Positions 6,369 through 32,000 of a stretch of 64,000 bases of DNA are shown here, piece after piece. The stretch lies in the NCBI RefSeq assembly GCF_003865015.1, contig NZ_BHVV01000006.1, positions 372,001-436,000 on the forward strand. Direction: 5' to 3'. Source of the stretch: Sulfurisoma sediminicola (GTDB lineage Bacteria; Pseudomonadota; Gammaproteobacteria; Burkholderiales; Rhodocyclaceae). Position numbers and translations under genes: made by a program. The notes under the pieces were generated by a model. The model worked only from the letters and a program-made list of their open reading frames with translations, was not told the origin of the DNA and did not search any database. Each line of letters opens with the position of its first letter. Position 1 is the first letter of the stretch.

Positions 6369-6445
6369 GGCGTTTTCGGCTCTGCGCCGGAGCCTCGTCC
6401 AGAGGGCTCGCCGACGGCGTGTTCGCGGCAATGTTTCAGCTTTGG

Positions 6446-6473
6446 GGAATAATCCGCGGGTGTCGTGCGTATA
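6446..6473 (+). promoter_or_regulatory. Candidate ECF-sigma promoter
   Basis: GGAATAA (6446-6452), 15 bp, CGTATA (6468-6473) resembles the GGAAT(A)A/CGT(C/A)TA promoters of ECF sigma factors. It lies 38 bp upstream of the operon that contains an ECF sigma gene, suggesting autoregulation. A GGAG ribosome binding site precedes the ATG at 6511. Confidence 0.45.
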
Positions 6474-6510
6474 TGCGGTGTAGCACCCCTCAACCCCAAC
6501 GGAGCACACC

Positions 6511-6885: not shown

Positions 6886-6892
6886 TCGCCTG

Positions 6893-8148: not shown

Positions 8149-8232
8149 AGCAGGGATCGTTCGACGCAGTGCGGATGGGGTAGAGTTGCTGGAGATCTAA
8201 AACTTCTCCCCGTCACCTGAAAGGTATCAGCG

Positions 8233-9714: not shown

Positions 9715-9786
9715 CCGTCCCTGGCGATCTCCATCGGCGTGTGGTGCGCGAGGCCGGCCGGCGTGATCTGATCGGGGCGAATTGCC

Positions 9787-11631: not shown

Positions 11632-11634
11632 GAA

Positions 11635-15983: not shown

Positions 15984-15994
15984 CGTGTGCTCTC

Positions 15995-17562: not shown

Positions 17563-18371
17563 TTGAAGTGCAGCCAGGGGAAGGACTTGCGGTGCATGGC
17601 GCGGAACAGCTGGTCGATGACCAGGCCGATGGCGCCGATCAGCAGAATGCCGGCGAAGATCTTGTCGGTCTGCATGAAGCGCTGCGCCTTGAGGATGGAG
17701 TAGCCCAGGCCCGAGTTGGCGGCGACCAGCTCGGCCACCACCAGGTAGGTCCAGGCCCAGCCCATGGTGATGCGCAGGGTGTCGAGCAGGGCCGGCTTGG
17801 CCGACTGCAGCAGCACCTGCTCGACGATCTCGCCGCGCGAGGCGCCCAGCGTCTGCGCCGCCTCGACCTGCGCGGCCGGCACGCGGCGCACGTCCTCGGC
17901 CACCATCAGCACCATCTGGAAGAAGGTGCCGATGAAAATGATGGCGATCTTCGAGCTTTCCTCGATGCCGATCCACAGCATCACCAGGGGGATGAAGGCG
18001 ACGGCCGGCATGTAGCGGATGAAGTCGGTCAGCGGCTCGAGCAGCGCCTGCACCGGCCGCCAGGTGCCGATCATCAGCCCCAGCGGCACGGCGATCACCG
18101 CCGACAGCGCCCAGCCGGCGACGACGCGATAGACGCTGATGGAAACGTCGCCGAGCAGCTCGTCCTCCGTCGCCCAGGTGACGAGTCGCCGTGCGACGTC
18201 AGCCGGCGAGGGCATGAAGACCTTGTCCATCAGCTCCAGCGCCGCCACGCCCCACCACAGGCCGAGCGGCAGCAGCAGGCCGACGAGCGCCAGCAGCCAG
18301 TAGCGGCGGGAAGAGATCGGCGCGCGGATCGCCCAGAATCCGGGGCCCATGTTGCGCTGGGGTACGGCCAT
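17559..18371 (-). CDS. ABC transporter permease (guanidine-linked)
   Basis: A 270-residue membrane protein with about six helices and the EAA loop (EAAQTLGASRGEIVEQVLLQSAKPALLDTLRITMGWAW), typical of SsuC/TauC-like permeases. It is the first gene after riboswitch copy 1. The binding-protein gene normally found beside it is missing here and is located behind riboswitch copy 2, which suggests the ancestral operon was split. The cargo is probably guanidine or a guanidine-containing compound. Confidence 0.9.
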   Translation of the reverse strand: MAVPQRNMGPGFWAIRAPISSRRYWLLALVGLLLPLGLWWGVAALELMDKVFMPSPADVARRLVTWATEDELLGDVSISVYRVVAGWALSAVIAVPLGLMIGTWRPVQALLEPLTDFIRYMPAVAFIPLVMLWIGIEESSKIAIIFIGTFFQMVLMVAEDVRRVPAAQVEAAQTLGASRGEIVEQVLLQSAKPALLDTLRITMGWAWTYLVVAELVAANSGLGYSILKAQRFMQTDKIFAGILLIGAIGLVIDQLFRAMHRKSFPWLHFK

Positions 18372-18417
18372 CTTCGGCTCCCTAATCGGTTGAACAGCGG
18401 GAGCGACGCGCGACCTC

Positions 18418-18512
18418 GTCCTCCCGGGCTTTTGTCCCTCCGTGGAGCCGCGCCTTCGCGAGGCCGGCGGCTCTCGGACCAGTCACCTCGACAAAGAGGC
18501 CGGAACCCTAGC
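18418..18512 (-). promoter_or_regulatory. Guanidine-I (ykkC) riboswitch, copy 1
   Basis: Read on the minus strand, the leader has the conserved guanidine-I blocks in order: CTAGGGTTCCGG (about 18511-18500), ACTGGTCCGAGAGCC (about 18483-18469) and ACGGAGGGACAAAAGCCCGG, followed by GAGGA (to about 18418). Variable stems lie between them. These are the nearly invariant blocks of the ykkC subtype-1 aptamer. It precedes the ABC permease by about 46 nt and should switch the operon on when guanidine binds. The expression platform (terminator or ribosome-binding-site masking) was not resolved. Confidence 0.93.
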
Positions 18513-18556
18513 CGCGCTTCGAGCAGCGATGGCAATCGCTCCCTTGCCCTACCTAC

Positions 18557-18572
18557 AGCAAGGGGTGTGCCA
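18557..18572 (-). promoter_or_regulatory. Sigma-54 promoter before riboswitch copy 1
   Basis: On the minus strand TGGCAC-ACCCC-TTGCT matches the -24/-12 consensus (TGGCAC-N5-TTGCW) at every position. The predicted start near 18546 lies about 35 nt before the aptamer. A short hairpin (AGCGAT-TGCC-ATCGCT) lies in this stretch and is conserved in copy 2. Confidence 0.85.
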
Positions 18573-18632
18573 TGCGAAAACCGGTAGCCGATGCACTATC
18601 GGCGGGCTGCGATGCGAGGTCGGACGGAAAGA

Positions 18633-18671
18633 GGCACCGATGTGGGGCGTTGGATGCCCGCGCATGGTGCG
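18633..18671. promoter_or_regulatory. Tandem NtrC-like sites upstream of the copy 1 promoter
   Basis: Two dyads resemble the NtrC consensus TGCACC-N5-GGTGCA: GGCACC-gatgt-GGGGCG at 18633-18649 and TGCCCG-cgcat-GGTGCG at 18655-18671, each 9 of 12 matches. They are 22 bp apart and about 75-110 bp upstream of the sigma-54 promoter, a normal enhancer distance. A weaker third dyad is at 18710-18726. Confidence 0.5.
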
Positions 18672-18924
18672 TTTGGGCATTGTGGTCGACGGGGCAGAGT
18701 GGGGCAGCGGGCACCGCTCTGGTTTGGCTGCGGATTGGTCGGTTATCGAAGTTCAGAGTGGCTCAGCGCCACGGCAGAAATTCGGCCATAGCTGCCACAG
18801 CATCTGGCCACGCTGTATGTCAGCTTAAGACGTTGCTGACATAGAACGAAATACGTACGATCTGTCCGCTACATGGCTATGGAAAGCTACCCAATTTTTT
18901 GCCAAAGCCATACGAATATCGACG
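18672..18924. other. Intergenic, mostly unexplained
   Basis: Beyond the weak NtrC-like dyad at 18710-18726 I see no gene or clear signal. Base composition becomes distinctly AT-richer from about 18820 onwards. This marks the left edge of the low-GC segment that carries the GIY-YIG gene. Confidence 0.5.
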
Positions 18925-20211: not shown

Positions 20212-20736
20212 TTACTCGGGCGGGAACCGCAGCTGCGAAAAGCTGCGCCCGGCCTGGATGGCTCGCCGCTCGATATCCGCGGCGGACTCAAGCCAGCCTT
20301 GCTGCTCCAGAAACAACAGATAAGCGCGCGTACTGATCTTGCGGCAGTTGTCCGGCAGCAAAAAGCTGGCGCGGGCGATTTTGTGATCCTCGAACAGGAA
20401 CACGCCGGTTTGTCGCGGCTGGTCCAGAGCGAAGTCGTTCATGGTTTCCTGGATCGCCAGTTCGCCGAGATTGGCGGTGCGGGCGGCGGCTGGGTCTGCC
20501 GCCAGCGTTTGCTGGTGATGCCGGAAAGTGCGGGTTGTGCGCACCGATACCTGGCCGGAGGCGGCCCACTGCGCCAGTTTCTCGCTGGTCGGCGTCTGGT
20601 TGCGCGTCACTTCGTGCAGCACCATATCGACCAGCACGATCGGCCAGCCGGGCTTGAACAGCAGGTCGAGCGCATCGGCATAGGCCAGCGTGATGAGCGG
20701 CCCGGCGTCGGGCAGCAGAGCAACGTTCGCGGCCAT
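20212..20736 (-). CDS. PIN-like toxin of a type II toxin-antitoxin pair
   Basis: A 174-residue protein starting MAANVALLPDAGPLITLAYADALDLL, a PIN-domain-like first strand and helix with an acidic residue. Later acidic positions are E45 (VLHEVT), ELAIQE and FEDHKIARASFLL. It follows a ribbon-helix-helix gene by 10 bp on the same strand, the usual antitoxin-toxin order. It is larger than standard VapC toxins (about 130). It probably cleaves RNA; the target is unknown. Confidence 0.7.
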   Translation of the reverse strand: MAANVALLPDAGPLITLAYADALDLLFKPGWPIVLVDMVLHEVTRNQTPTSEKLAQWAASGQVSVRTTRTFRHHQQTLAADPAAARTANLGELAIQETMNDFALDQPRQTGVFLFEDHKIARASFLLPDNCRKISTRAYLLFLEQQGWLESAADIERRAIQAGRSFSQLRFPPE

Positions 20737-20746
20737 CGCGAGCGGC

Positions 20747-21094
20747 TCAGCTTGCCAGCGATTTCAGTTGATCGACCATGTCGCGCGTGTCCGCCTCCGG
20801 CAATCGCGGCATCGGCAGGTGGGCTTGCGCCATCAACAGGAAGAGGTCTTCCTCGCTGTCGATTCCCAGCGCGCGCATGGCTTCGTCGCCCGCGAGCCGC
20901 CCCAGCGAAAAGTCGAGCAGCCGCCGGTAATTCTGGTTGCCCGTCGCTTCGGCCGCCTCGAAGGTTTCGACAAGATGGCGAAGCTCGGCGTTGAAGAGCG
21001 CATTGACCGAGGTGTCGGTCTTGGCGGCAATGATTTTGGCGCGCTTGAGCAGATCGCGATCAACCGCGCCGGTGAAATTGACGGTGCTTGCCAT
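20747..21094 (-). CDS. Ribbon-helix-helix antitoxin
   Basis: A 115-residue protein. The N-terminal part VNFTGAVDRDLLKRAKIIAAKTDTSVNALFNAELRHLV is a ribbon-helix-helix (Arc/CopG-like) DNA-binding domain, and the C-terminal part would bind the toxin. The ATG at 21094 has GGAGG 8 nt upstream, which favours it over a GTG eight codons earlier. It is the probable antitoxin and autorepressor for the PIN-like toxin that follows. Confidence 0.75.
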   Translation of the reverse strand: MASTVNFTGAVDRDLLKRAKIIAAKTDTSVNALFNAELRHLVETFEAAEATGNQNYRRLLDFSLGRLAGDEAMRALGIDSEEDLFLLMAQAHLPMPRLPEADTRDMVDQLKSLAS

Positions 21095-21111
21095 TTCCTG
21101 CCTCCATGGAA

Positions 21112-21323
21112 TTAACACATAGATAAGTGTAGCACACCGATCGGTGTTGCTGAAACCGCACCGGGGGGGTGCGGTGTTTGGTATCGGTGTCGTCTGTCCT
21201 TGCCGTATTCGGGGACGAGCGTGCGGTAGCGCTGGGGCACGGCTCTGAAATCATGGGTGGTGAAGTAGGGATTGGTGGCCAGATCGGCGACGAACATGGA
21301 GAACTCTTCTTCCAGCAGCTCAT
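21112..21323 (-). pseudogene. Remnant or frameshifted small gene
   Basis: The frame reads NELLEEEFSMFVADLATNPYF followed by TTHDFRAVPQRYRTLVPEYG, which looks like real protein. It has no start codon before the Met at 21297, and the tail after the EYGKD segment looks random. A good ATG at 21318 lies one base out of frame, so a single indel would restore the start codon. It sits just after the 127-residue gene and may have been its operon partner. Function unknown. Confidence 0.4.
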
Positions 21324-21331
21324 TTCTGCAC

Positions 21332-21715
21332 CTATTCCGCCTCGCCCTGCAACGCCACCTGCATCTCCTGCTCCGTTACCGGGTACTTCAAGACGGCATG
21401 GATGGGGAACAGCGCCGCCAGCTTGCCGACGTGCGCTTCGTCACGGGGATGCGCGAACACGATGACTTTCGCTTCCGGCGCGAAGCGTTGAAGGGTCGAG
21501 AGCGTGACATCGAGATTGCACAGATTCGTCCCGGCGTAGTTGTTGGCCCAGCCGTAGATGAAATCGCCGACGAAATAGTCCGGCGCCTGCTGCTGCATTG
21601 CCTTGTGCAGCTTGCGCGCGGTGTCGAAAAATTCCACCGCGATGCCCAGCCGCTGGTACAGGGCGGTGAGGTTCGGGTGGAACGGGGATTCGATCAGGGA
21701 GAACAGTGTTTTCAT
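21332..21715 (-). CDS. Receiver-like hypothetical protein
   Basis: A 127-residue protein (MKTLFSLIESPFHPNLTALYQRLG...). The alternating alpha/beta pattern with ADxFIYG-like and IVFAHP segments resembles a degenerate receiver (CheY-like) fold, but I do not see the canonical phospho-acceptor context. I recall similar proteins from beta- and gammaproteobacteria without an assigned function. It lies between two toxin-antitoxin pairs. Confidence 0.55.
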   Translation of the reverse strand: MKTLFSLIESPFHPNLTALYQRLGIAVEFFDTARKLHKAMQQQAPDYFVGDFIYGWANNYAGTNLCNLDVTLSTLQRFAPEAKVIVFAHPRDEAHVGKLAALFPIHAVLKYPVTEQEMQVALQGEAE

Positions 21716-21746
21716 GGCGCGTCGACCCCGCTGGCGGGGCAGCGAT

Positions 21747-22142
21747 TCAAACTTCCCATATCCGCACCTCGGGCGCGATACCCGCGGCGCGCGCCGCCGT
21801 GCAGAAGTTGCGGTCGAATGTGTGCATGACGGCACTGCCGCAGGCGGCGAGATGCAGCGCGTCGGCGAAATCCGCGCCCAGCGCATACCAGTCGAGCGCC
21901 AGGCGGATTTCCTCGGCAGCCTCGATCACGGTGTCGTCGGTTTCCAGCAGCGCGTGGAAAAAATTCAGTAGTTCGGTCGGCGTTCTCTTGTAGCGTGCGC
22001 GCAGCACCCATTCGGTTTCCAGCAGTACGGTGCGCGGAACAAAAACGGTGTCGCCGGCAATCAGTTGGCGCACCACGGCGACCTGGTCGGGGTGGTCGGC
22101 GACCAGTGCGAGCACCAGCATGTTGGTGTCCAGCGCAATCAT
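21747..22142 (-). CDS. PIN-domain toxin (VapC-like)
   Basis: A 131-residue PIN protein with the expected acidic residues: D5 (MIALDTNMLVLAL), E43 (LLETEWVLRARY), D93 (GADFADALHLA) and D110 (MHTFDRNF). This matches VapC-type ribonucleases. Its ATG overlaps the stop of the AbrB-like gene (ATGA). Confidence 0.88.
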   Translation of the reverse strand: MIALDTNMLVLALVADHPDQVAVVRQLIAGDTVFVPRTVLLETEWVLRARYKRTPTELLNFFHALLETDDTVIEAAEEIRLALDWYALGADFADALHLAACGSAVMHTFDRNFCTAARAAGIAPEVRIWEV

Positions 22143-22414
22143 CGGTCGGCGCTCTCTGATGCTTCCCCGTCCTCGCTGTAATCGACGGGCTGGCAGAGAT
22201 CTTCGATGGACAGGGGCGGCCCCTCATGTTTGAAGAGACCGATCAGGTCCGTCAGCTTTCGCCCGGTTTTCTTCGATACGGCCTTGAGCGTGACGCCGGA
22301 CGCGCTGGAAACCAGGGCGATCTGCGTTCCGGCGTCCCAATGCAGTTCGTCCCGAATTTCTTTCGGGATCACGACTTGGCCCTTGCTGGAAAGCGTGATG
22401 GTCGCGATAGCCAT
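22139..22414 (-). CDS. AbrB/MazE-type antitoxin
   Basis: A 91-residue protein. Residues 5-45 form a swapped-hairpin AbrB domain (ITLSSKGQVVIPKEIRDEL, DAGTQIALV), and the C-terminal 45 residues would bind the PIN toxin. GGAGG lies 7 nt before the ATG. A dyad at 22429-22449 upstream is a candidate autoregulatory operator. Confidence 0.88.
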   Translation of the reverse strand: MAIATITLSSKGQVVIPKEIRDELHWDAGTQIALVSSASGVTLKAVSKKTGRKLTDLIGLFKHEGPPLSIEDLCQPVDYSEDGEASESADR

Positions 22415-22428
22415 GGAAACCTCCGGGG

Positions 22429-22449
22429 TAAGACAAAAAGTAAGTCTAA
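22429..22449. promoter_or_regulatory. Dyad operator of the AbrB-PIN pair
   Basis: TAAGAC-N9-GTCTAA is an inverted repeat (5 of 6 positions) in an AT-rich stretch 15 bp upstream of the antitoxin ATG, where toxin-antitoxin operators usually lie. Confidence 0.4.
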
Positions 22450-22566
22450 TTATCGGCGTGTCTGCGGGTTATGGCAAGCATGTCGATGGGACCGCGCGTC
22501 GGTCGTGTTGCAGGAGATGCTGCACGGCTGAGCGCGCAGGGGGGCAGGCTTCCTGCTCGGCGTCCT

Positions 22567-22583
22567 GCCAGCGCCGACTTTTC
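22567..22583 (-). repeat. GTCGGCGCYGGC element at the sugar-isomerase stop
   Basis: On the minus strand GAAAAGTCGGCGCTGGC follows and overlaps the TGA of the gene at 22582-23424. It is one of at least five near-identical 3'-end elements in the window (see also 27620-27640, 38234-38254, 44689-44701 and 44785-44797). Confidence 0.45.
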
Positions 22584-23424
22584 AGGCGCCCTGCCAGCGC
22601 GCGAAGTGTTCGCGCTCCGTGTTCCCCATCCATCTGTTGATTTCCCATAGGTCGGCCACCGGCTCGCGGGTGTAGGGATGCTCGTGCAGGTAGCCGTCGG
22701 GGCCGAATTCCGGCGTGAGGGTCGTGGTCGCGTAGCCGCGGCTGCGCTGGCTTTGCCAGATCGATTGCCACAGGCGCTGGTGCGCTTCGAGCCAGCGCGC
22801 GTATTCGGGCGCGGCGGGGTGGGGCACCTGCGGGCCCTGGTCGTAGCCGACGCGGGCGTGGATGTGATGCACGCGCGAGGCGATGAAATCCATGGCGTCG
22901 GGCTCGTCGTCGAGCGCGCGCTCGCAGACGACGAACCAGTGGCTGAAGTCGGCGGTGAGGCGCAGTTCCGGCAGGCGGCGCAGCACCTCGACAGCGACCC
23001 AGGGATTGAACAGGGTGCGGCTGCGGTGGGTCTCGAAGACCAGCGCGTGGCCGGACTTTTCGGCGAGTCTCAGCGCGTCCTCGAAGAAGCACAGCGAGGT
23101 GTCCAGCGGCCAGGCGTCGCAGCCGGCGATGGCGGTGACGAAACGCGGCGCGAGTTCGTCGGCGGCGGCCAGCGCGGCGGCGATGTCGGCGAGGTGGCGC
23201 TCGGGTGGCGCGCGGCGGTCGGGGACGTACCAGCCGCCGGTGTAGACCTCGCCGATGTAGTCGAGGCCGGCATCGCGCAAGGAGGCGGCGAGTTCGCGCT
23301 GTTTGGCCGGCTCGGCAGGCAGCGTGGCTTCGAGACCGGCGAAGCCCGCTTCGTGCGCCTGCGCGGCGGCCTCGGCGTAACTGCCTTGGTGGCCCCAGAG
23401 GGTCTTGAAGATGTCGAGCCGCAT
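22582..23424 (-). CDS. Sugar phosphate isomerase/epimerase-like TIM-barrel protein
   Basis: A 280-residue xylose-isomerase-like TIM barrel. Metal-ligand-type motifs are GLEATLPAEPA, ALVFETHRSRTLFNPW, LTADFSHWFVVCE and a late TPEFGPDGYLHEHPYT; the E/D/H pattern fits the AP-endonuclease-2 fold family. The substrate is unknown. It is flanked by toxin-antitoxin pairs and not obviously part of an operon. Confidence 0.75.
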   Translation of the reverse strand: MRLDIFKTLWGHQGSYAEAAAQAHEAGFAGLEATLPAEPAKQRELAASLRDAGLDYIGEVYTGGWYVPDRRAPPERHLADIAAALAAADELAPRFVTAIAGCDAWPLDTSLCFFEDALRLAEKSGHALVFETHRSRTLFNPWVAVEVLRRLPELRLTADFSHWFVVCERALDDEPDAMDFIASRVHHIHARVGYDQGPQVPHPAAPEYARWLEAHQRLWQSIWQSQRSRGYATTTLTPEFGPDGYLHEHPYTREPVADLWEINRWMGNTEREHFARWQGA

Positions 23425-23480
23425 CAGTCGAAGGGGCTGTTGGCGGGATCGTGCCGATGCCGTGCTTGCGCGACGGGTCG

Positions 23481-23888
23481 TTACCGCGAGAACGGATTGA
23501 TCACGGCGACCCCGGTGGGGTCGAAATGGCCCGTGTTTCGCGTAACGACGGTCAGGCCATGGACCAGCGCCGTCGCCGCGATCAACAGGTCGGCGCCATC
23601 GTGGTTCAGGCGGGCTGACAGGCGCCCCCAGCGGCGCGCGATGGCGGGCGTGACCGGCAGGAGACGATCCGCGTAGAGGCGCGTCAGGTTCTCCAGCCAT
23701 GCCGCCAGGGTGTCGGCGAATTCGGGATCGCCCTTGCGCCGCTTTTCGATGCCGCGCTCGATTTCGCCGAGCGTCACCACGCTCAGAAACAGTTGGTCGT
23801 CCTGCTGCTTCGATATCCACCGCACCGCGCCGGGGTCCGGCCTTGCCTTGCGCAACTCGGAGATGACGACGGTGTCGAGCAGGAACAT
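23481..23888 (-). CDS. PIN-domain toxin (VapC/FitB-like)
   Basis: A 135-residue PIN protein with D5 (MFLLDTVVISELRK), E42 (GEIERGIEKRR), D97 (HDGADLLIAATAL) and D122 (TGHFDPTGV), the family's acidic quartet. VISELRK is typical of the FitB/VapC branch. The ATG at 23888 shares a base with the antitoxin stop codon. Confidence 0.9.
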   Translation of the reverse strand: MFLLDTVVISELRKARPDPGAVRWISKQQDDQLFLSVVTLGEIERGIEKRRKGDPEFADTLAAWLENLTRLYADRLLPVTPAIARRWGRLSARLNHDGADLLIAATALVHGLTVVTRNTGHFDPTGVAVINPFSR

Positions 23889-24160
23889 CACAAGTCGACC
23901 TCGCGCAGGGCGATGCGGCCGGGCTCAGGGGCCGTTCCGGGCGCTTCGCCACCTTTGGGGATGGCAAGCAGATGGGCCACGAAACCGGGTGCTTCCGCCT
24001 GCGCTCCTGCGCGCAGCGCGCGATAGCTGGCCTCGGACAGCACGACCACGGCTTCACGACCCCTGCGGGTTACGTGTTGGGGCTCGCCTTGTATGGCCGA
24101 CTCGACGACCTCGCTGAACTTCGCTTTTGCGTCCTGCAATCGCCACTGGGTCTTGGGCAT
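23888..24160 (-). CDS. Phd/YefM-type antitoxin
   Basis: A 90-residue protein starting MPKTQWRLQDAKAKFSEVVE, with GEPQHVTRRGREAVVVLSEASYRAL, the Phd/YefM signature. It is the partner of the downstream PIN toxin and probably represses the pair's own promoter. Confidence 0.9.
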   Translation of the reverse strand: MPKTQWRLQDAKAKFSEVVESAIQGEPQHVTRRGREAVVVLSEASYRALRAGAQAEAPGFVAHLLAIPKGGEAPGTAPEPGRIALREVDL

Positions 24161-24259
24161 GGCATCGCCTCCTGATTCCGTTTCAAACTAGTCAGATTAT
24201 CTGGTCAGTCAGTGGGGGTGTCAAGGCGATTCGGTGACAACATGGTCGCGAACCTGGGG

Positions 24260-25045
24260 CTACTCGACGGCCCGAAACCCTTGGGCCACGAGCGTGCGAT
24301 AAAACGAGATGTCGTGGTTGGGCCAGAGCTGCGCTCCTTCCTCGGCGGCGAGCCGCTTGAGCTTGCGGATGCTGGCGAGCGCCTGGTGTTCGCGCTCCTG
24401 CCAGCACAGGCCGGGGGCGACTTCGTCGTCGAGGTTCTCCTGCAGGTCGGCGGCGTCGCCGCAGAGGATGACCGGCGGGCCCTTGGGCAGTTCGATCAGC
24501 AGCGACATGTGGCCGGCCGTGTGGCCGGGGCTGGCGATGGCGCGCACGCCGGGGGCGAGGTCGTATTCGCCCTGCTGCACTTTCCAGCGATAGTCGCCGG
24601 CGAAATCCGCGGGGAAGTAGGCGACGTCCTCGCCCGAGCGCGCGGCGTCGAGCTCGTCCTGCTGGATGTGGATCTCGGCGCCGCAGACATCGCAGAGGCC
24701 GCCCGCATGGTCGAAGTGCAGGTGACCGATGAAGACGAGGTCGACGTCGGCCGGCGCGAGGCCGAGGCGGGCGAGGTGATGGGGCAGGCGGTCTTCCTCG
24801 CGCATCTCGGGCGGGCCGAAGGGGAAGACCTCGGGGTCGTAGTAGCGGGCGCACTGCGCCGGGTCGGCGATCTTGGCGTAGTCGCAGCCGACGTCGTAGA
24901 GGATGCGGCCGTTCTTCGTCTCGATCAGGTAGGCGAGGATCGGCGCCTCGATGGTGGTGCCATGGCCGCGGTGGCGCGTCGACAGCGACTTGTCGTAGCG
25001 GTGGGTGGCGGTGAGCAGCGGCCACAGGCGCAGCACATCGGTCAT
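24260..25045 (-). CDS. Metallo-beta-lactamase-fold hydrolase (AHL-lactonase-like)
   Basis: A 261-residue protein with the two-zinc motif HLHFDH (H108-x-H110-x-D112-H113), then H in SPGHTAGHMS, D in ILCGDAADL and H in LWPNHDISFY. It resembles N-acyl-homoserine lactonases, but this branch covers many amide and lactone hydrolases. It overlaps the cysteine hydrolase gene by 4 bp and is the last gene of the run that begins after riboswitch copy 2. A guanidine-related or urea-related substrate is therefore possible. The lactonase name should not be taken as function. Confidence 0.8.
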   Translation of the reverse strand: MTDVLRLWPLLTATHRYDKSLSTRHRGHGTTIEAPILAYLIETKNGRILYDVGCDYAKIADPAQCARYYDPEVFPFGPPEMREEDRLPHHLARLGLAPADVDLVFIGHLHFDHAGGLCDVCGAEIHIQQDELDAARSGEDVAYFPADFAGDYRWKVQQGEYDLAPGVRAIASPGHTAGHMSLLIELPKGPPVILCGDAADLQENLDDEVAPGLCWQEREHQALASIRKLKRLAAEEGAQLWPNHDISFYRTLVAQGFRAVE

Positions 25046-25677
25046 GGCGCGGCCGCCGTTTCGATCAGCGCTAGCGCGGCTTCCGTGTCGAGCAACTGGC
25101 CGAAGATGCCGCCCTCGACGCCGACCATGCGCAGCGCGGCGGCGTGCAGTTCGGTGTCTGCCGAGGCGCAGGCGTCGCCGACGAGGACGCAGCGGTAGCC
25201 GCGGTCTATCGCCTCGCGCAGCGTGGAATGGACGCAGACCTCGGTGGTGACGCCGCAGACGATCAGTTGCTCGATGCCGCGGTTTCTCAGGATGCCTTCG
25301 AGGTCGGTGTTGGTAAAGGCGCTGTAGCCGGGCTTGTCGACGACGGGCTCGCCGGGCAGCGGCTGCAGCTCGGGAACGATGTCGTGGCCTGCTTCGCCGC
25401 GAACGAGCAGGCGCCCGAGCGGGCCGCGCGTGCCGATCTCGGCGCCGGCGGCGCGGCTGCGCTCGAGCTTCGCCGGGGGGCAGTCGGAGAGGTCGGGGCG
25501 GTGGCCCTCGCGGGTATGCACGACGAGTAGCCCGGCCTGGCGCGCACCCCACAGCAGGTTGCGGATCGCGGGAATGGGGCGGCGCAGCGCGGCGACGTCG
25601 AGCCCCGCGGCGGCGGCGTAGCCGTCCGGGTCGAGGAAGTCGCGCTGCATGTCGATGACGATGAGTGCGCTCTTCAT
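25042..25677 (-). CDS. Isochorismatase-family cysteine hydrolase, biuret-hydrolase-like
   Basis: A 211-residue cysteine hydrolase with the triad D9 (VIDMQRDF), K115 (VVDKPGYSAF) and C148 (CGVTTEVCVHST). The stretches LLVRGEAGHDIVPELQPLPG and TTEVCVHSTLREAIDRGY resemble biuret amidohydrolase and related carbamoyl amidases. Biuret hydrolysis yields allophanate, the substrate of the AtzF encoded at 9787-11631. A link to the guanidine/urea pathway is thus chemically attractive, but it rests on context. Both ends overlap neighbours by 4 bp. Confidence 0.8.
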   Translation of the reverse strand: MKSALIVIDMQRDFLDPDGYAAAAGLDVAALRRPIPAIRNLLWGARQAGLLVVHTREGHRPDLSDCPPAKLERSRAAGAEIGTRGPLGRLLVRGEAGHDIVPELQPLPGEPVVDKPGYSAFTNTDLEGILRNRGIEQLIVCGVTTEVCVHSTLREAIDRGYRCVLVGDACASADTELHAAALRMVGVEGGIFGQLLDTEAALALIETAAAP

Positions 25678-26561
25678 GCCGGCGCTTCCTGACTTGCGGG
25701 CGCGTCTTCGCTGCGTGCCTCGAGCACGGCGGCGGCGAGGATCAGCGTGCCGCCGACGGCTTCCTTGAGGCCGAGGTGTTCGCCGCCGATGAGCACCGCC
25801 GAGACCACGCCGACCACCAGCTCGGCGAGCAGCAGGATCGCGGCCTTGCCGGCCTCGAGCCGCGCGACGCCGTAGTAGGTGGCGAGCATGCCGGGCAGCA
25901 CCCAGAACAGGCCGAGCGCGGCCAGCGCCAGCAGCGTCGCCGCGGCGGGCGCGGGCGGCCCTTCGTCGCGGACGAGCATGAAGCCGGCCGAGAGCAGGGC
26001 GCAGCCGGCGAAGACGGCGACCGAGCGGACGATCTCGGGCAGGGCGCCGCCGCCGCCCGGGTCGTGCGCCGCGCGGATCGCGATGTTGGTCAGCGCGAAG
26101 GCCAGTCCCGAGGAGAGCGCGAGCAGGTCGATGGCGCCGAGCGGCGCCGCGAAGAGCTGCGGGCCGCCGAGGGTGAAGGCCAGGCCGGCCATCGCCAGCG
26201 CCAGCGAGGCCAGGCGCAGCTGGGTGATCGGTTCGGCCAGCACCATGCGCGCGGCGAGGATGGTCCACACCGGCGCGAGGTAGAACAGCAGCATCACGCG
26301 CACCACGTTGCCGTGGGTGAGCGCGCTGGCGAAGGAGGCGTTGGCCCAGCCGCCGAGCAGGGCGATGAGGGCGAGCAGGCCGAGGCGGTTCTGCCAGGCC
26401 GCGCGGCTGGCCCAGGCCCAGGGCGCGAGGACCAGCGCCGGCAGGGCGTAGGCGACGAGCTGCACGAAGCTGCCGGCCACGCCGGCGCCGGCCAGCGCCT
26501 TGAGCGGCCACCAGAACAGGCCCCAGAGCACGGAGCCGGCGAGCAGCACGGCGATGGGCAT
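25674..26561 (-). CDS. EamA/DMT-family transporter
   Basis: A 295-residue protein with about ten hydrophobic helices in two EamA halves (LLAGSVLWGLFWWPLKALA near the start and IAWxPxx/ALIALLGGWANASF-type repeats). Drug/metabolite transporters of this family usually export metabolites. In a transcript headed by a guanidine riboswitch it could export a guanidine derivative or a breakdown product. It lies 7 nt after the desaturase-like gene and overlaps the cysteine hydrolase. Confidence 0.82.
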   Translation of the reverse strand: MPIAVLLAGSVLWGLFWWPLKALAGAGVAGSFVQLVAYALPALVLAPWAWASRAAWQNRLGLLALIALLGGWANASFASALTHGNVVRVMLLFYLAPVWTILAARMVLAEPITQLRLASLALAMAGLAFTLGGPQLFAAPLGAIDLLALSSGLAFALTNIAIRAAHDPGGGGALPEIVRSVAVFAGCALLSAGFMLVRDEGPPAPAAATLLALAALGLFWVLPGMLATYYGVARLEAGKAAILLLAELVVGVVSAVLIGGEHLGLKEAVGGTLILAAAVLEARSEDAPASQEAPA

Positions 26562-26568
26562 GGCGATG

Positions 26569-27585
26569 CTAGACCGCGGTGAGGAAGGACACGGCGACCG
26601 CGCCCTTGAAGGCGGCGGGGTTGCCGGCATCGACCACGCCGTAGTCCTCGGACAGCACGCGGCCCGTACGGTGACGATGGAAGGGCGCGAGCAGCTTCGC
26701 CATGGGGATGGCCTGCGCGCAGGTCGAGCCGTAGAGCCGCCGGTGCAGCGCGGGCAGCCGGTGCCAGGGCACGGCGGGTTCCTCGTGGTGGGCGTTGTGG
26801 TAGGCGAAGTTGAGCAGCAGCAGGTTGAGCGCGGGCAGCCGCACCGAGACGAGGTTGGAATAGGTGTTGGCCTGCTCGTAGGCGGCGTCGCGCAGCTTGT
26901 CCTGCGGTACCTTGTCCTTGTCGAGAATGGCGAAGGCGTCGTAGGTGTGCTGGTAGCAGTCGGCGAAGCGCAGCACGGTGACCATGACCAGGTAGGCCGC
27001 GACGTAGAGCGCGGCGCCTTGCGGCGCGAACCCGGCGAGCAGGGCGAAGGCCGTGCCGCGCACGGCGAGGATGGCGAGCAGGCGCGGGCGCTCGGCGCGG
27101 CGCTCCGCGCGCATGAAGGGCAGCAGCATGACCCAGGCGTGCATCAGCAGGTCGACGGCGGGGACGTAGGCCCATTCGAGCGCGAGCACCAGTTGCCGGC
27201 GCCAGGCGGGGCCGGCCAGCAGCCAGGCCTTGACGTCGAGGCTGATGACGTCGGCGCGGTCGACGTGGTGGCGCATGTGCTTCAGGCGCAGGTGCTCGTA
27301 GCGGGCGTAGCAGCCGCCGGTGAGCCAAGTCATGAAAATGCCGGCGCGGCGGTTCCAGGCCGGGCGGGCGAAGATGCTGTTGTGGGCGAATTCGTGGAAG
27401 AGGTAGGCGGCGATGATCAGCGCGTGGGCGAACCACAAGGTGGCGGCGAGCGCGAGCGGCAGCGGCGCGGTCGCCATCAGCCACAGGCCGATGCCGTAGC
27501 CGGCGAGGGCGTAGGCCAGCGCCAGCACGTTGGGCAGGGCGCCGTCGGCGTGTCGAAAAATGAGGCGGAAGATGCCGGGTTTCAT
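26569..27585 (-). CDS. Membrane di-iron fatty-acid-desaturase-family enzyme
   Basis: A 338-residue integral membrane protein with the three histidine boxes of membrane desaturases/hydroxylases: HEFAHN (about 64-69), HMRHH (about 104-108) and HNAHHE (about 263-268). Several hydrophobic helices lie between boxes. The family oxidises acyl chains or other hydrophobic substrates (desaturases, carotene and alkane hydroxylases). Its place directly after a guanidine-riboswitch-controlled binding protein is unusual. Oxidation of an alkylguanidine or an unrelated lipid role are both open. Confidence 0.8.
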   Translation of the reverse strand: MKPGIFRLIFRHADGALPNVLALAYALAGYGIGLWLMATAPLPLALAATLWFAHALIIAAYLFHEFAHNSIFARPAWNRRAGIFMTWLTGGCYARYEHLRLKHMRHHVDRADVISLDVKAWLLAGPAWRRQLVLALEWAYVPAVDLLMHAWVMLLPFMRAERRAERPRLLAILAVRGTAFALLAGFAPQGAALYVAAYLVMVTVLRFADCYQHTYDAFAILDKDKVPQDKLRDAAYEQANTYSNLVSVRLPALNLLLLNFAYHNAHHEEPAVPWHRLPALHRRLYGSTCAQAIPMAKLLAPFHRHRTGRVLSEDYGVVDAGNPAAFKGAVAVSFLTAV

Positions 27586-27605
27586 GGCAGCGGCAGGAAG
27601 AAGGC

Positions 27606-27640
27606 CGGCGCCGGCGTGTCGCCGGCGCCGACTTTTTGCA
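27606..27640 (+). terminator. Strong GC hairpin with T-run between binding protein and desaturase genes
   Basis: CGGCGCCGGCG-TGT-CGCCGGCGCCG is a perfect 11-bp stem (27606-27630) followed on the plus strand by ACTTTTTGC, a good intrinsic terminator for rightward transcription. For the minus-strand operon there is no U-run after the stem, so it may act only as a leaky attenuator or mRNA 3'-end stabiliser behind the binding-protein gene. It contains the recurrent AAAAAGTCGGCGCCGGC element. Confidence 0.6.
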
Positions 27641-27644
27641 TGGA

Positions 27645-28637
27645 TTACTTGATGGCCTTGACGAAGCGGTCGTCGAGGGTGGTGGCGATGTCGACCGGCT
27701 TCTTGATCTGGCCGCTCTTCACCAGGATCTCGTTGATGATCGCGCCGCTGGTGTAGTAGGAGGTGGTTTCCTTGGCCTTGGCATAGGGCTTCAGCATCTC
27801 GGCCTGCGGGATGTTGTAGACGCCGGAGAGCTGCTCGCCGACTTCCTTCTCGGAGACGCCGACGGCCTTGCCGATGAGCTTGGCGGCTTCGGCCGGCTTG
27901 TCCTTCATGAACTTGAGCGCTTCGAGGTAGACGCTGACGATGGCCTGGATCTCCTTGCCGTTCTTGGCGATCTTCTTGTCGTCGAAGGCGAGCACGTCGG
28001 CGATCAGGCCCGGCGCTTCCTTGGACGAGTAGATGACCTTGATCTTGTCCTTGCCGGCGGTGAGGATCTGCGAGACGTTGGGCTCGTAGGTGACGCCGAC
28101 GGGCACGGCGCCGGAGGCCATCGCCGCGGGAATCGCCTCGGGGGTCATGTTGACCGGGCTGATGTCCTTGACGCTCATGCCGTTGGCCTTGAGGGCGTAG
28201 GAGATGAGGAAGTCGGAGGGCGACAGCGGGGCGTAGGCGACCTTCTTGCCCTTGAGGTCGGTGATCTTGGCGATCGGCTTGGCGGCCAGCACGGCGTCGC
28301 CGCCGTTGGAGTAGTCGACCGGCAGCACGACCTTGAAGACCTGGCCCTGGCCGGCGGCGCCGATCACCTGGTCGTAGGTCATCAGTGCGCCGTCGACGGC
28401 ACCGCCGGACATCGCCGAGGGCAGGGCGGCCGGATCGGGGAAGGTCTGCAGCGTGACCTTGAGCCCGTGCTTCTTGTAGAGGTCGAGCGCGTCGGCGACG
28501 TAGAACGGCGAGTAGCCGATCCAGGTGGTGAGGCCGATCTTCATGGTGGTGGCGGCCTGCGCGCCGGCGACGGCGAGGGCGCCGGCGATGCCAACGGCGA
28601 GGATGCGGGCTTTGCGGAGAAGGGACGAGCTTTGCAT
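27645..28637 (-). CDS. ABC transporter substrate-binding protein (guanidine-riboswitch controlled)
   Basis: A 330-residue protein with a signal peptide (MQSSSLLRKARILAVGIAGALAVAGAQA). The NMT1/SsuA-like start is MKIGLTTWIGYSPFYVADALDLYKKHGL, followed by GAVDGALMTYDQ and typical two-lobe segments. This is the binding-protein class that normally precedes the permease and ATPase of guanidine-carboxylase operons. Here it lies behind its own riboswitch copy 2. It should capture guanidine (or urea-like molecules) in the periplasm and hand it to the transporter encoded at 16729-18371. Confidence 0.88.
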   Translation of the reverse strand: MQSSSLLRKARILAVGIAGALAVAGAQAATTMKIGLTTWIGYSPFYVADALDLYKKHGLKVTLQTFPDPAALPSAMSGGAVDGALMTYDQVIGAAGQGQVFKVVLPVDYSNGGDAVLAAKPIAKITDLKGKKVAYAPLSPSDFLISYALKANGMSVKDISPVNMTPEAIPAAMASGAVPVGVTYEPNVSQILTAGKDKIKVIYSSKEAPGLIADVLAFDDKKIAKNGKEIQAIVSVYLEALKFMKDKPAEAAKLIGKAVGVSEKEVGEQLSGVYNIPQAEMLKPYAKAKETTSYYTSGAIINEILVKSGQIKKPVDIATTLDDRFVKAIK

Positions 28638-28684
28638 GGTGAGGCTCCTTGGCAGGGTGAAAGGCGGAGGGGCGGTGTCAGCGC

Positions 28685-28787
28685 GTCCTCCCGGGCTTTT
28701 GTCCCTCCGTGTAGCTCCGCGCTCGCGGAGCCGGTCGCTCTCGGACCAGGCATCCGCCGAACGAGATGGCGGACCGGAACCCTAGCG
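28685..28787 (-). promoter_or_regulatory. Guanidine-I (ykkC) riboswitch, copy 2
   Basis: On the minus strand the same invariant blocks occur as in copy 1: CTAGGGTTCCGG, CTGGTCCGAGAGC and ACGGAGGGACAAAAGCCCGG followed by GAGGAC. The stems between them differ in sequence and length, as expected for covarying helices. It ends about 48 nt before the ATG of the binding-protein gene. The two copies also share the 5' leader up to the promoter, so the whole promoter-aptamer unit appears duplicated. Confidence 0.93.
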
Positions 28788-28830
28788 ACACTTTCGAGCA
28801 GCGATGGCGATCGCCCCCTGGCTACCTCTT

Positions 28831-28846
28831 AGCAATGCTTGTGCCA
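28831..28846 (-). promoter_or_regulatory. Sigma-54 promoter before riboswitch copy 2
   Basis: On the minus strand TGGCAC-AAGCA-TTGCT is a perfect -24/-12 element. It has the same position relative to the aptamer as in copy 1, but a different spacer. Confidence 0.87.
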
Positions 28847-28898
28847 TGCAGCAGGCGGCGGTGTCTGCGTGTGAAACCGGGCGCCGGGGCTCAGCCGG

Positions 28899-28946
28899 CG
28901 CACCGCCGCGGTTCATCCGGCGAGTCCGCGGCACGACCTTGGTGCA
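28899..28946. promoter_or_regulatory. Tandem NtrC-like sites upstream of the copy 2 promoter
   Basis: CGCACC-gccgc-GGTTCA (28899-28915) and GGCACG-acctt-GGTGCA (28930-28946) each match 10 of 12 positions of the NtrC dyad TGCACC-N5-GGTGCA. Their centres are 31 bp apart, three helical turns, and lie about 60-100 bp upstream of the sigma-54 promoter. Confidence 0.6.
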
Positions 28947-28970
28947 TCCCGGGCGTTCGAGCGGACTGGT

Positions 28971-29040
28971 TCAGCGCTGCGCCAGCATCCCCTTGTCGAC
29001 GTTGAAGCGGATGATGTCGTTCAGCCGCTGACAATCGATT
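28971..29040 (-). other. Possible gene remnant at the edge of the guanidine locus
   Basis: A minus-strand frame ending at 28971 reads LNDIIRFNVDKGMLAQR before its stop, which looks like a genuine protein C-terminus. Upstream the same frame runs into the transglutaminase gene and becomes non-protein-like. It may be the tail of a gene lost when this locus was rearranged. Evidence is thin. Confidence 0.25.
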
Positions 29041-29046
29041 GCCGGG

Positions 29047-32000
29047 TCAGGGTCTGCGCCGCAGGTCCAGGGTATGCGGGTATTCCCCCGGCATTTCCTC
29101 CGCCGGTAGCGAATAGTCGCCGGGCGTGTGGCCGCTGGCGTGGAAGCGGATGTGGCGGCGTGCCTCCGCCTCCCAGGCATTCACCGGGAAGGTGTCGTAA
29201 TTGCGTCCGCCCGGGTGCATCACGTGGTAGGTGCAGCCGCCGACGGCGCGGCCATTCCACAGGTCGAACAGGTCGAACACCAGCGGCGAATGCACGCCGA
29301 TGGTCGGATGCAGGCCCGAGGGCGGCTGCCAGGCGCGGTAGCGCACGCCGGCGACGTACTCGCCATGCACGCCGGTGTTGCGCAAGGGCACGCGGCGGCC
29401 GTTGCAGGCGAGTGCGTAGCGGCCGTCGCTGAGTCCCGTCGCCTTGACCTGCACCCGCTCCACCGACGAGTCGACGAAGCGTGCCGTACCCAGACCGGTC
29501 ACCTCCTCGCCCAGCACGTGCCAGGGTTCGATGGCGCCGCGCACCTCGATTTCGATGTCGCCCAGTTGCAGGCTGCCGTAGCGCGGAAAGCGGAATTCGA
29601 GGAAGGGCGCGAACCATTCTGCCTCGAAGGCATAGCCCGCGCCGGCCAACTCGCCGACCACGTCCTTGAGGTCGGTCCAGAGATGGTGCGGCAGCATCCA
29701 GCGGTCGTGCAGCGCCGTGCCCCAGCGCACCAGCGGTTTGGCATAGGGCGTCTCCCAGAACCGTGCCACCAGCGCCCGCAGCAGCAGCATCTGCGCCAGG
29801 CTCATGCGCGCGTGCGGCGGCATCTCGAAGCCGCGAAACTCGAGCAGGCCCTGGCGTCCCGACGCGCTGTCGGGCGAGTAGAGCTTGTCGATGCAGAACT
29901 CGGAGCGGTGGGTGTTGCCGGTGATGTCGGCGAGCAGGTGGCGGAACAGGCGATCGACCAGCCACGGCTGCGGCGTCTCCCCGGCGGGCACCTGCTGGAA
30001 GGCGATTTCCAGTTCATACAGCGTCTCGGCGCGCCCCTCGTCCACGCGCGGCGCCTGGCTGGTCGGGCCGATGAACATGCCGCTGAAGAGGTAGGACAGG
30101 CTCGGGTGGTGCTGCCAGTAGGTGACGATGCTGCGCAGCAGGTCCGGACGCCGCAGGAAGGGGCTGTCGGCCGGTCTGGCGGCGCCGAGCGTGACATGGT
30201 TGCCGCCGCCGGTGCCGCTGTGGCGGCCGTCGAGCATGAACTTTTCCGTGCCTAGGCGCGACAGCCGTGCCTCTTCGTACAGCGTCGTCGCGATGGTTTC
30301 GAGTTCTTCCCAGCTTGCCGCCGGCTGCACGTTCACCTCGATGACGCCGGGATCCGGGGTCACCAGCAGCTTCTGCAGGCGACCATCGCCCGGCGGGGGG
30401 TAGCCCTCGACGGCCACGGGCAGATAGAGTGCCGCGGCCGTGTGCTCGATGGCGGCGATCAGCTCCAGCGCATGCTCGAGGCGCTGCATCGGCGGCAGGA
30501 AGACATGCAGGCAGCCGCCGCGTGCCTCGACGCAGAGGGCGGTGTGCGGCACCTGGAGTTTTTTCCCGGCGCTGTCGCCCGGCGGCTGCGGGTTGATTTC
30601 CGGGTGCGCTTGGGTCTCGCCATCGATGCGGCTGAAGCGGGCGGCGACCTCGCCGTGGAAATCCGCCAGCGGCAGGTGCGGCGCGAACGGGTCGGCCTCG
30701 CTCTCGTGTTCCACTTCGTCTTCGGGCACCCAGGGCAGCGAGGCCAGCGGCAGGCGCAGGCCCATCGGCGAATCGCCCGGTACCAGGTAGAGCTGGCCGC
30801 GGCGGAATTCCCAGGGTACGGAATACCAGCCTGCGGCGTTCCAGCTCCATCCCAGCGGCAGCAGGTAGCCGACCGGGCTGTCGAGGCCGCGCGACAGCAC
30901 CGCGGCGAGGCGGCGGCGTTCCGCCGGCGACTTCAGGTCGGCGTGCGCGGCATCGAGGTTGGCCGGCATTTCGGCTTCCTGCTGCAAGTAGTGGAGTCCA
31001 TCCTCGAAGGCCGGTTGCACGCAGCTTCCGGCCAGTCCGAGGTGGCGCGCCAGAGTCTCGGCGAAGCGCCGCGCCTCCACGGCGCCGTGGCCATAGTCGC
31101 GGCAGGGATCCGCCAGCAGCTTTTCGTCGCGCCAGACCGGCACGCCGTCCTTGCGCCAGAAGATGCCCAGCGCCCAGCGGGGCAGGGGCTCGCCCGGATA
31201 CCACTTGCCCTGCGCCATGTGCAGCAGGGCCCCGGGGGCGAAGCGCGCCTTGAGGCGGCGCGCCAGGACTTCGGCCAGCTCGCGCTTTTTCTTGCCCAGC
31301 GCGGCCGTGGTCCATTCCGGCGCGTCCATGTCGTCGACCGAGACGAAGGTCGGCTCGCCGCCCTGGGTCAGCCGCACGTCCATTGCCTGCAGCCGCGCGT
31401 CGACGTGGCGGCCGAGTGCGCGGATGCGCTCCCATTGCGCGTCGGTGTAGGGCTTGGTGACGCGCGGATCCTCCTTGAATCGGGTCACCGTATTGCTGAA
31501 GCTGAAATCGACCTCGCAGGGATCGGTGAGGCCCTCGATGGGGGCCGCACTGGACGGATGGGGAGTGCAGGCGAGCGGAATGTGCCCCTCGCCGGCGAAG
31601 AGCCCCGAGGTCGGATCGAGGCCGATCCAGCCGGCGCCCGGAACGTAGACCTCGGCCCAGGCGTGGAGATCGGTGAAGTCGTGTTCAGGCCCCGACGGCC
31701 CGTCCAGCGATTTCTCGTCGGCCGTGAGTTGCACCAGGTAGCCCGAGACGAAGCGCGCCGCCAGGCCCAGGTGCCGCAGGACCTGCACCAGCAGCCAGCC
31801 GGTGTCGCGGCAGGAGCCGATGGCGCGGCCCAGCGTTTCCTCGCAACTCTGCACGCCCGGTTCCAGCCGCACGGTGTAGCCGATCGCCGCCTGCAGCCGC
31901 TGGTTCAGGGCCACCAGGAAGTCGATGGTCGGCTGCGGTTCGCGTGGTATGCCGGCGAGGAAAGCTTCGAGCAGCGGCCCCGGCGCCTCGGCCTCGAAAT

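Follow-up and report, generated by a model that had tools for sequence, protein, structure and literature searches.

What does a membrane oxygenase of the fatty acid desaturase type do behind a guanidine riboswitch? The question is raised by a locus of Sulfurisoma sediminicola, analysed here in a window of 64,000 nucleotides (G000:C6:372001-436000, from a genome of 2.995 Mb in 8 contigs). An Rfam scan of the window found exactly two Guanidine-I aptamers, both on the minus strand, and the whole 2.995 Mb genome contains no further one. Behind copy 2 lie five genes on the same strand, for which a model given the sequence only (referred to below as the sequence-only reading) had proposed the oxidative removal of an alkyl group from substituted guanidines, followed by hydrolysis to products that enter metabolism through allophanate. 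The answer favoured here, with a probability of roughly 0.6, is that these genes constitute an upper pathway in which substituted guanidines would be converted to free guanidine, to be degraded by the carboxylase operon situated behind riboswitch copy 1. The unit, with the gene labels used below, is as follows.

28686-28796, minus strand: Guanidine-I riboswitch copy 2, at the head of the unit (RF00442, 90.5 bits, cut-off 63)
27645-28637, minus strand: SBP, a periplasmic binding protein, NMT1/SsuA-like (PF09084, 3.4e-24)
27604-27632, minus strand: hairpin in the SBP-DES intergenic region (13 pairs, z -3.7)
26569-27585, minus strand: DES, a predicted membrane di-iron oxygenase of the FA_desaturase family (PF00487, 3.7e-30)
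25674-26561, minus strand: EamA, an EamA-family transporter (PF00892)
25042-25677, minus strand: CYS, an isochorismatase-fold cysteine hydrolase, guanylurea/acylguanidine-hydrolase-like (PF00857)
24260-25045, minus strand: MBL, a di-metal metallo-hydrolase related to AHL (acylhomoserine lactone) lactonases and 4-pyridoxolactonase (PF00753)

The coordinates, families and minus-strand orientation of the five genes were all reproduced. The start of EamA was placed at 26561, downstream of the start of the longer open reading frame. The description of the genes as mostly overlapping holds for EamA, CYS and MBL, which are joined by 4-bp overlaps (EamA-CYS and CYS-MBL), and fails for the SBP-DES and DES-EamA junctions, where gaps of 59 and 7 bp were measured.

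The evidence that carries the answer is the conservation of this arrangement. Guanidine-I was searched for in a first sample of 150 genomes, the window's own included. It was present in 15 of them, with 21 copies in total (own genome counted), and its background frequency is estimated at roughly one per 30 Mb. In four of the 14 other riboswitch genomes (G112, G136, G138 and G147) the riboswitch is followed by an SBP and a DES of the same type as in the window; no DES was seen in the fetched riboswitch stretches of the other ten. Loci encoding relatives of DES were fetched from a named collection with a DES alignment, and the best 80 of the 135 candidates encoding a relative were kept; they come from 80 different genomes, the collection searched having one for each species. 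Riboswitches were called in these loci with a covariance model built from the 21 Guanidine-I copies. In 76 of the 80 loci a Guanidine-I riboswitch precedes DES by at most 2.5 kb on the same strand, with an SBP between, one of the 76 riboswitches (L057) being cut off by a contig end. Set against the background of roughly one copy per 30 Mb, this grouping is no accident. As to the exceptions, the contig begins at or just before DES in L042 and L100, L058 has no riboswitch, and in L106 the riboswitch is 2.9 kb upstream, with a permease and an ATPase between.

Since the seeds of the first alignment came from riboswitch loci, the analysis was repeated with a DES profile, 300 genomes of the order serving as a second sample and more than 500 bits being taken as the orthologue level. 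Some DES match was found in 55 of these genomes, 18 of them at orthologue level, and a riboswitch is present at 16 of the 18 orthologue-level loci (one cut off at a contig end), those of G525 and G700 being without. Four loci with lower-scoring DES paralogues have no riboswitch within their stretches. The two samples are not independent, as some genomes are shared. The association of these gene families with guanidine riboswitches elsewhere, whose absence had been named in the sequence-only reading as counting against it, proved to be very strong.

Downstream gene content was counted in the 51 loci whose sequence extends 7 kb or more beyond the start of DES, a limit that L058 does not reach. 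A protein of the MgdL family is encoded in 50 of them, CYS in 45, a creatininase-family protein in 44, SDR_B (one of two SDR proteins) in 43, MBL in 40 and EamA in 38. The commonest order, DES-SDR_A-SDR_B-EamA-creatininase-CYS-MBL-MgdL family, was observed in 19 of the 51. Minimal operons also occur: in L056 and L095 only DES, MBL and an MgdL-family gene follow the SBP, and L058 looks alike. The carboxylase lies within the same stretch in 23 of the 80 DES loci, many stretches ending earlier. The genera that harbour DES relatives include Thiobacillus, Thiomonas, Acidithiobacillus, Pseudomonas, Halopseudomonas, Polaromonas, Rhodoferax, Hydrogenophaga and Paraburkholderia; the gene set is thus widespread, in many soil and water bacteria.

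The near-constant MgdL-family gene is the most informative of the neighbours. The function of MgdL was described in Vreelandella boliviensis, where methylguanidine is hydroxylated by the 2-oxoglutarate (2OG)/Fe(II) dioxygenase MgdH; the N-(hydroxymethyl)guanidine so formed is split by MgdL, a hypothetical protein whose model is a beta-barrel and which needs residues D49 and R51 for the reaction (PMC12508155). The last protein of the DES operons has about 250 residues and no Pfam family above threshold. It could be assigned through G512 and G319, in which a protein of the same family is encoded directly after a DIOX_N/2OG-FeII_Oxy protein, behind the carboxylase. The G512 operon starts with Guanidine-I, has Guanidine-II immediately ahead of the carboxylase and carries AtzF beyond it, which is the arrangement published for V. 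boliviensis, and the conserved Asp and Arg of its MgdL-family protein are residues 49 and 51, matching the published catalytic numbers. Equivalents of D49 and R51 are kept in 54 of the 55 members of the MgdL cluster, the remaining one being gapped there. The G512 protein and the aligned members from DES operons are only 25-36% identical. An AlphaFold2 model of a cluster member is strand-rich (pLDDT 85.3); its Foldseek matches include lipocalin-like and fatty-acid-binding-type barrels, the best being yeast YLR301w (3rby, E 2.8e-5), with which a sub-threshold Pfam HRI1 match (0.0014) in one of five family members agrees. On the dioxygenase neighbour, the published-like operon, the two catalytic residues and the barrel model, the conserved last protein of the DES operons is assigned to the MgdL family. 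In a search of 369 genomes of the class, matches to the family were found in 6. The single evaluable locus without it downstream of DES is L052, and the genome concerned (G136) has the MgdL family and MBL in another operon.

MgdH, by comparison, is largely missing from the genomes with DES. When the G512 dioxygenase was used as a query, no match was obtained in 17 of the 18 orthologue-level DES genomes, the window's included; the eighteenth, G147, has two MgdH relatives, only 39% identical. The same search recovered the query's own genome and G319 (67%). With MgdL in most DES operons and MgdH largely missing from the DES genomes, it is DES that would perform the hydroxylation of MgdH: most likely it replaces MgdH and acts on an N-methyl- or N-alkylguanidine, as judged from its association with MgdL only.

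The properties of DES agree with an oxygenase. Profile, histidine motifs and fold identify it as a membrane di-iron oxygenase of the FA_desaturase/AlkB type, a classification drawn from sequence and model. Nine His residues are invariant across 29 aligned sequences, as is an SFLT motif near the C-terminus (29 of 29). The AlphaFold2 model (pLDDT 85.9) matches FtAlkB with Z 10.8 (4.9 A over 238 residues), AlkB-AlkG with Z 10.3 and SCD1 with Z 5.5, and scores higher (Z 16.6) to a chain of a chloroplast FtsHi complex. Foldseek alone was weak for this protein (best E 1.6e-3), and the AlkB match rests on the second structural comparison. Oxidative alkyl removal from a substituted guanidine, as the sequence-only reading had it, remains the best reading of this family, and the conserved unit mostly contains MgdL as well.

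The genes of the expected lower pathway lie about 6 kb from the DES unit, behind riboswitch copy 1:

18419-18522, minus strand: Guanidine-I riboswitch copy 1, at the head of the carboxylase operon (RF00442, 88.5 bits)
17559-18371, minus strand: ABC (ATP-binding cassette) permease, the first gene after riboswitch 1 (open reading frame)
16729-17565, minus strand: ABC ATPase (PF00005)
15995-16732, minus strand: CgdB-type carboxyguanidine deiminase subunit, start uncertain (PF09347; TIGR03425, 350.5 bits, cut-off 205.95)
15330-15983, minus strand: CgdA-type carboxyguanidine deiminase subunit (PF09347; TIGR03424, 348.2 bits, cut-off 284.7)
11635-15333, minus strand: urea/guanidine carboxylase (TIGR02712, 1875.6 bits)
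9787-11631, minus strand: AtzF-type allophanate hydrolase (PF01425 and PF21986)

The profile scores of CgdB were obtained for 15995-16684, the longer start coming from the gene call. This operon starts with the permease and has no SBP, as do its counterparts in G112, G136, G138 and G147, the permeases being 68-75% identical. The SBP of the DES unit is of a type distinct from that usual in guanidine operons, as judged by identity: 41-74% to the SBPs preceding DES in other loci and about 26-33% to those of ordinary guanidine operons. In L056, L061 and L071 an ordinary SBP (27-33% identical) is retained in a divergent operon beside the DES-type SBP. The lack of an SBP in operon 1 and the coexistence of both types in these three loci suggest that the DES-type SBP probably delivers a different ligand to the same ABC transporter.

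The proposed pathway would accordingly be entered at this transporter: the DES-type SBP would hand a substituted guanidine to the permease and ATPase encoded after riboswitch 1. DES, judging by its family, fold and gene association, would hydroxylate the N-methyl or N-alkyl carbon, the product being a hemiaminal, for example N-(hydroxymethyl)guanidine, which in most relatives MgdL would split into guanidine and formaldehyde. No MgdL was detected in the window genome with one sequence and two profiles, so that here the hemiaminal would have to decay alone (published half-life more than 1 h) or be handled by MBL. In a fourth step CYS would hydrolyse an acylguanidine such as guanylurea to guanidine, as suggested by a proven enzyme 63-65% identical to it. 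Guanidine would finally be converted to ammonia and CO2 by the carboxylase, CgdAB and AtzF, an established pathway whose genes are present. Through the DES unit, the cell can probably use substituted guanidines as a nitrogen source.

Regulation is consistent with this scheme. Of 50 aptamer columns conserved in other guanidine operons, 49 are equally conserved in the copies of DES operons (76 DES copies vs 27 others), and window copy 2 deviates at the one remaining column. The core being unchanged, the ligand should still be guanidine, and an altered ligand for the DES operons was rejected on this ground. A Guanidine-I copy of V. boliviensis was blind to methylguanidine over the range tested (PMC12508155), which implies that induction needs the product, guanidine. 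The riboswitch would then sense the free guanidine made by the upper pathway, and, as guanidine induces both operons, that product would feed forward.

The assignment of CYS departs from what had been proposed. Against the biuret amidohydrolase equivalog NF050097 it scores 259.3 bits, the cut-off being 370. Residues D9, K115, C148 and E188 align with D36, K142, C175 and Q215 of BiuH, a correspondence obtained from the alignment and a hand count with a 20-residue tag taken from PMC5806882. E188 is found in the window protein and in 52 of 53 cluster relatives, the remaining one being gapped. The BiuH residue that contacts the distal amide of the substrate biuret is Gln215, whose replacement by Glu lowered kcat/KM from 149742 to 115 (PMC5806882). 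CYS is 62.9% identical over 202 aa to a cysteine hydrolase of plasmid pMET-2, with the same triad and the same Glu; that plasmid and two other Pseudomonas plasmids from wastewater carry its closest plasmid relatives (64.8% over 193 aa). A proven guanylurea hydrolase with very low biuret activity is encoded on pMET-2, adjoining an annotated cytidine deaminase gene (PMC9800807). The pMET-2 homologue adjoins a nucleoside deaminase and is the only CYS match on that plasmid; it was therefore taken to be the proven enzyme. These data indicate that CYS is probably guanylurea/acylguanidine-hydrolase-like and no biuretase, and an acidic side chain opposite the distal end of the substrate would suit a guanidinium group. 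The label of biuret hydrolase was accordingly given up, and with it the exit through allophanate: the closest proven relative yields guanidine, so that products should enter at guanidine, via the carboxylase operon. The combination of biuretase and allophanate exit was thus rejected for three reasons: the family score, Glu in place of Gln and the kinship to guanylurea hydrolase.

MBL retains its di-metal ligands. Where the lactonases have their catalytic tyrosine (Tyr194 in AiiA), it has Asp200, and Asp is found there in 47 of 47 relatives. Its score against the AHL lactonase model NF045699 is 139.5 bits (cut-off 375), and an AHL lactonase was rejected on the score and the Tyr-to-Asp difference. 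Hydrolysis of an over-oxidised N-acylguanidine would fit, as a speculation. Every evaluable DES locus except L052 has MBL or MgdL or both, and four near-complete genomes without MgdL have MBL beside DES; replacement of MBL and MgdL by each other was considered, and the co-occurrence pattern proved too weak to build on. EamA is perhaps an exporter, going by its family.

Several points weigh against an upper pathway built around DES. For the known enzymes of the FA_desaturase/AlkB type the substrates are mostly hydrophobic, and the Z of 10.8 to AlkB is under the level of about 13 below which matches between helical proteins may mean little. The window genome has no MgdL, so that the strongest clue to the role of DES is absent here; divergence hiding an MgdL from view was rejected, the one sequence and two profiles having given nothing. 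MgdL was found in 13 of the 18 DES genomes, and genome searches show it missing also from G525, G700, G676 and the 85%-complete G545. The riboswitch is absent near DES in G525 and G700 (two of 18) and in L058. In G525 (L164) and G700 (L165) an SBP-DES-EamA-MBL set stands behind the carboxylase and AtzF; the 19 kb stretch gave no match to Guanidine-I, and the genome none to MgdL. The reaction published for MgdH and MgdL leaves no role for MBL. As regards CYS, the replacement corresponding to the Gln-to-Glu difference speaks the other way in the triuret hydrolase TrtA, where Gln202Glu raised biuret activity tenfold (PMC7948467); Glu alone therefore does not exclude biuret. Finally, the creatininase-family and SDR genes of most relatives are left unexplained, and the starting compound may for that reason be creatinine-like rather than methylguanidine.

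This last point leads to the rival that survives best, a route for creatinine or another cyclic guanidine, in which the creatininase-family enzyme, the two SDR proteins, DES, CYS and MBL would oxidise and open a creatinine-like ring to give methylguanidine and then guanidine, the window having kept only the lower part of the full operon. The conversion of creatinine via creatol to methylguanidine is known chemistry. The creatininase-family gene and SDR_B are present in the large majority of evaluable loci (44 and 43 of 51), two family members reach 361 and 352 bits against the creatininase equivalog (cut-off 235), and the family matches a solved creatininase at E 3.3e-76. Abiotic production from creatinine is named as the only reported source of methylguanidine (PMC12508155). 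This route is nevertheless judged unlikely: no protein of the creatininase family or with a creatinase N-domain is encoded in the window genome, the minimal operons L056 and L095 lack the creatininase and both SDR genes, and L058 shows only a 30-bit SDR trace. The classical creatininase-creatinase route was rejected for the window genome, neither family being present. In its widest form, in which an undescribed family of membrane di-iron oxygenases makes free guanidine and all the genes of the longest operons (SBP, DES, both SDRs, EamA, the creatininase-family enzyme, CYS, MBL and MgdL) serve a complete oxidative route from creatinine or a similar cyclic guanidine via methylguanidine and guanidine to ammonia, the idea is held equally tentatively; if true, it would answer where guanidine comes from in these proteobacteria.

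Two observations on the creatininase-family genes may be added. The gene at 13615-14391 of L116 has 3a6e as its best solved match, a sequence distinct from 1j2t, and both it and 3a6e show Phe at the position of Trp174 of wild-type creatininase; the natural substrate may on that account be other than creatinine. In L023 (7025-8524, on the contig of L052) an aldehyde dehydrogenase gene follows the creatininase gene, the unit being split over separate riboswitch operons there and also in L024.

Less probable still is the use of guanylurea or other acylguanidines with CYS as the main enzyme, DES acting on an unrelated or a longer N-alkyl or hydrophobic guanidine. Its appeal lies in the identity of CYS to the pMET-2 guanylurea hydrolase and in the companions of the latter on the plasmid, a permease and an ATPase that share about 60% identity with their counterparts in the window and an SBP that shares 31%. 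On the other hand, CYS is missing from 6 of the 51 evaluable loci and MgdL from 1, so that DES and MgdL, not CYS, form the constant pair. The pMET-2 module differs from the DES unit in having a nucleoside deaminase and no DES among the 11 annotated features shown, and in giving no strong Guanidine-I match (20 bits). Within L059 (15374-17448), an SBP, a nucleoside deaminase and CYS occur in the pMET-2 order (SBP 49%, deaminase 51% identical); this module is perhaps related to the source of the wastewater plasmid module.

The upper-pathway reading presupposes that the transcript behind riboswitch copy 2 extends past the SBP-DES hairpin. A stop at this hairpin, combined with a promoter of DES's own, had been named in the sequence-only reading as the finding that would count against it. 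The hairpin itself is real (13 pairs from 27632 to 27604, a 61-base stretch folding at -29.3 kcal/mol, z -3.7); in a consensus scan it was barely terminator-like, its tail CUUCUUCCUG being without a U run. No promoter-like site was found before DES in the consensus scan of 23500-29200, the sole match there (TTGACA-17-GATAAT, 24224-24196) preceding the downstream antitoxin (Phd) gene. At the SBP-DES junction of other loci, stems of at least 7 bp were present in 27 of 79 cases, only perfect stems being counted and imperfect ones left out; they are mostly without a T-run, L042 excepted. Since the tail is poor, no promoter-like site was found before DES and the stems elsewhere mostly have no T-run, termination is unlikely, and the hairpin is probably an attenuator or an mRNA-stability element rather than a full terminator. 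It would suit an element that sets the ratio of SBP to enzymes. The weakest rival, in which this 13-pair GC hairpin, listed in the scan as terminator-like, leaves only SBP on the riboswitch transcript and the genes from DES to MBL have an expression of their own and serve some other function, is very improbable in the face of these results, of the SBP-DES order kept behind the riboswitch in 76 of 80 genomes and of the tight packing from DES to MBL (one 7-bp gap, two 4-bp overlaps).

Compared with the MgdH/MgdL operon of V. boliviensis (PMC12508155), the DES units have in common Guanidine-I control, coupling to the carboxylase and an ABC importer, and nearly all evaluable relatives share MgdL with D49/R51. 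They differ in having the non-homologous membrane di-iron DES in place of MgdH, in adding EamA, CYS, MBL and often creatininase-family and SDR genes, and in possessing their own riboswitch copy and SBP; the window genome, moreover, lacks MgdL. The Gca-CgdAB-AtzF operon is present under riboswitch 1 as the expected lower pathway, differing here in that the permease comes first and the SBP, of another type, is found in operon 2. With the AlkB/FA_desaturase superfamily DES shares the overall fold and a histidine-rich di-iron site, whereas it stands apart as a narrow subfamily tied to guanidine riboswitches, with the invariant SFLT motif.

Where guanidine, which is sensed by four riboswitch classes, comes from in nature has been called an open question in a recent review; the sources listed are EFE, NapI, guanylurea hydrolase and plant homoarginine hydroxylases (PMC12186494), to which MgdH/MgdL is added by PMC12508155. 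In the literature searched, which left subscription papers mostly outside and makes for a weak absence, no desaturase-type enzyme, creatininase or lactonase was met in guanidine-riboswitch operons; the "desaturase" of the guanidine-riboswitch literature examined is the arginine desaturase NapI. A route from substituted guanidines that is controlled by a guanidine riboswitch and uses an oxygenase unrelated to MgdH may be new. The gene set links a guanidine riboswitch, an oxygenase and the one known hemiaminal lyase, and the biuretase label of CYS has been corrected. Should the role of DES be as proposed, oxidative demethylation of methylguanidine would have at least two origins, in enzyme families without relation to each other, and many riboswitch-adjacent genes that now bear the labels fatty acid desaturase, lactonase, creatininase or isochorismatase would need re-annotation.

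Further arrangements of DES were observed. A DES paralogue is accompanied by EamA, CYS and MBL in L166 (G118, 9229-12664) and by EamA, CYS, MBL and a creatininase in L167 (G733, 6028-10136), neither stretch containing an SBP, MgdL or a riboswitch; the DES-EamA-CYS-MBL module of these two loci may be mobile on its own. On plasmids, DES gave only one distant cyanobacterial record (34% identity), and MgdL no match. One operon with two DES copies and extra SBPs is present in each of L057, L059, L061 and L074, as if to serve two successive oxidations or two substrates.

MgdL, too, occurs in other settings. In L128 (G233, 9655-18893), a third arrangement, it is situated beside EamA, an ABC importer, a different creatininase-family protein, a glutamine-synthetase-like protein and CgdBA, with no DES or MgdH in the stretch. 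At G512:C1:4010637-4012248 (L127, L133) a 45% identical 2OG dioxygenase match, with an internal stop in part of the match, directly precedes a second, more distant MgdL-family match, so that this MgdH/MgdL genome has a second pair of the two. An MgdL-family gene in L130 (G361, 9654-11429) lies beside a zinc-type alcohol dehydrogenase gene, in a stretch where no guanidine gene was recognised.

The stretch between the two operons of the window (20212-24160) contains toxin-antitoxin (TA)-like pairs, Phd/PIN at 23481-24160 and MazE-like/PIN at 21747-22414, together with genes without a Pfam match. In L078, L083, L087, L097 and L105, MgdL is followed by the second riboswitch and the permease. As the TA-like pairs occupy the position that MgdL has in relatives, MgdL may have been lost from the window genome through an insertion between the operons.

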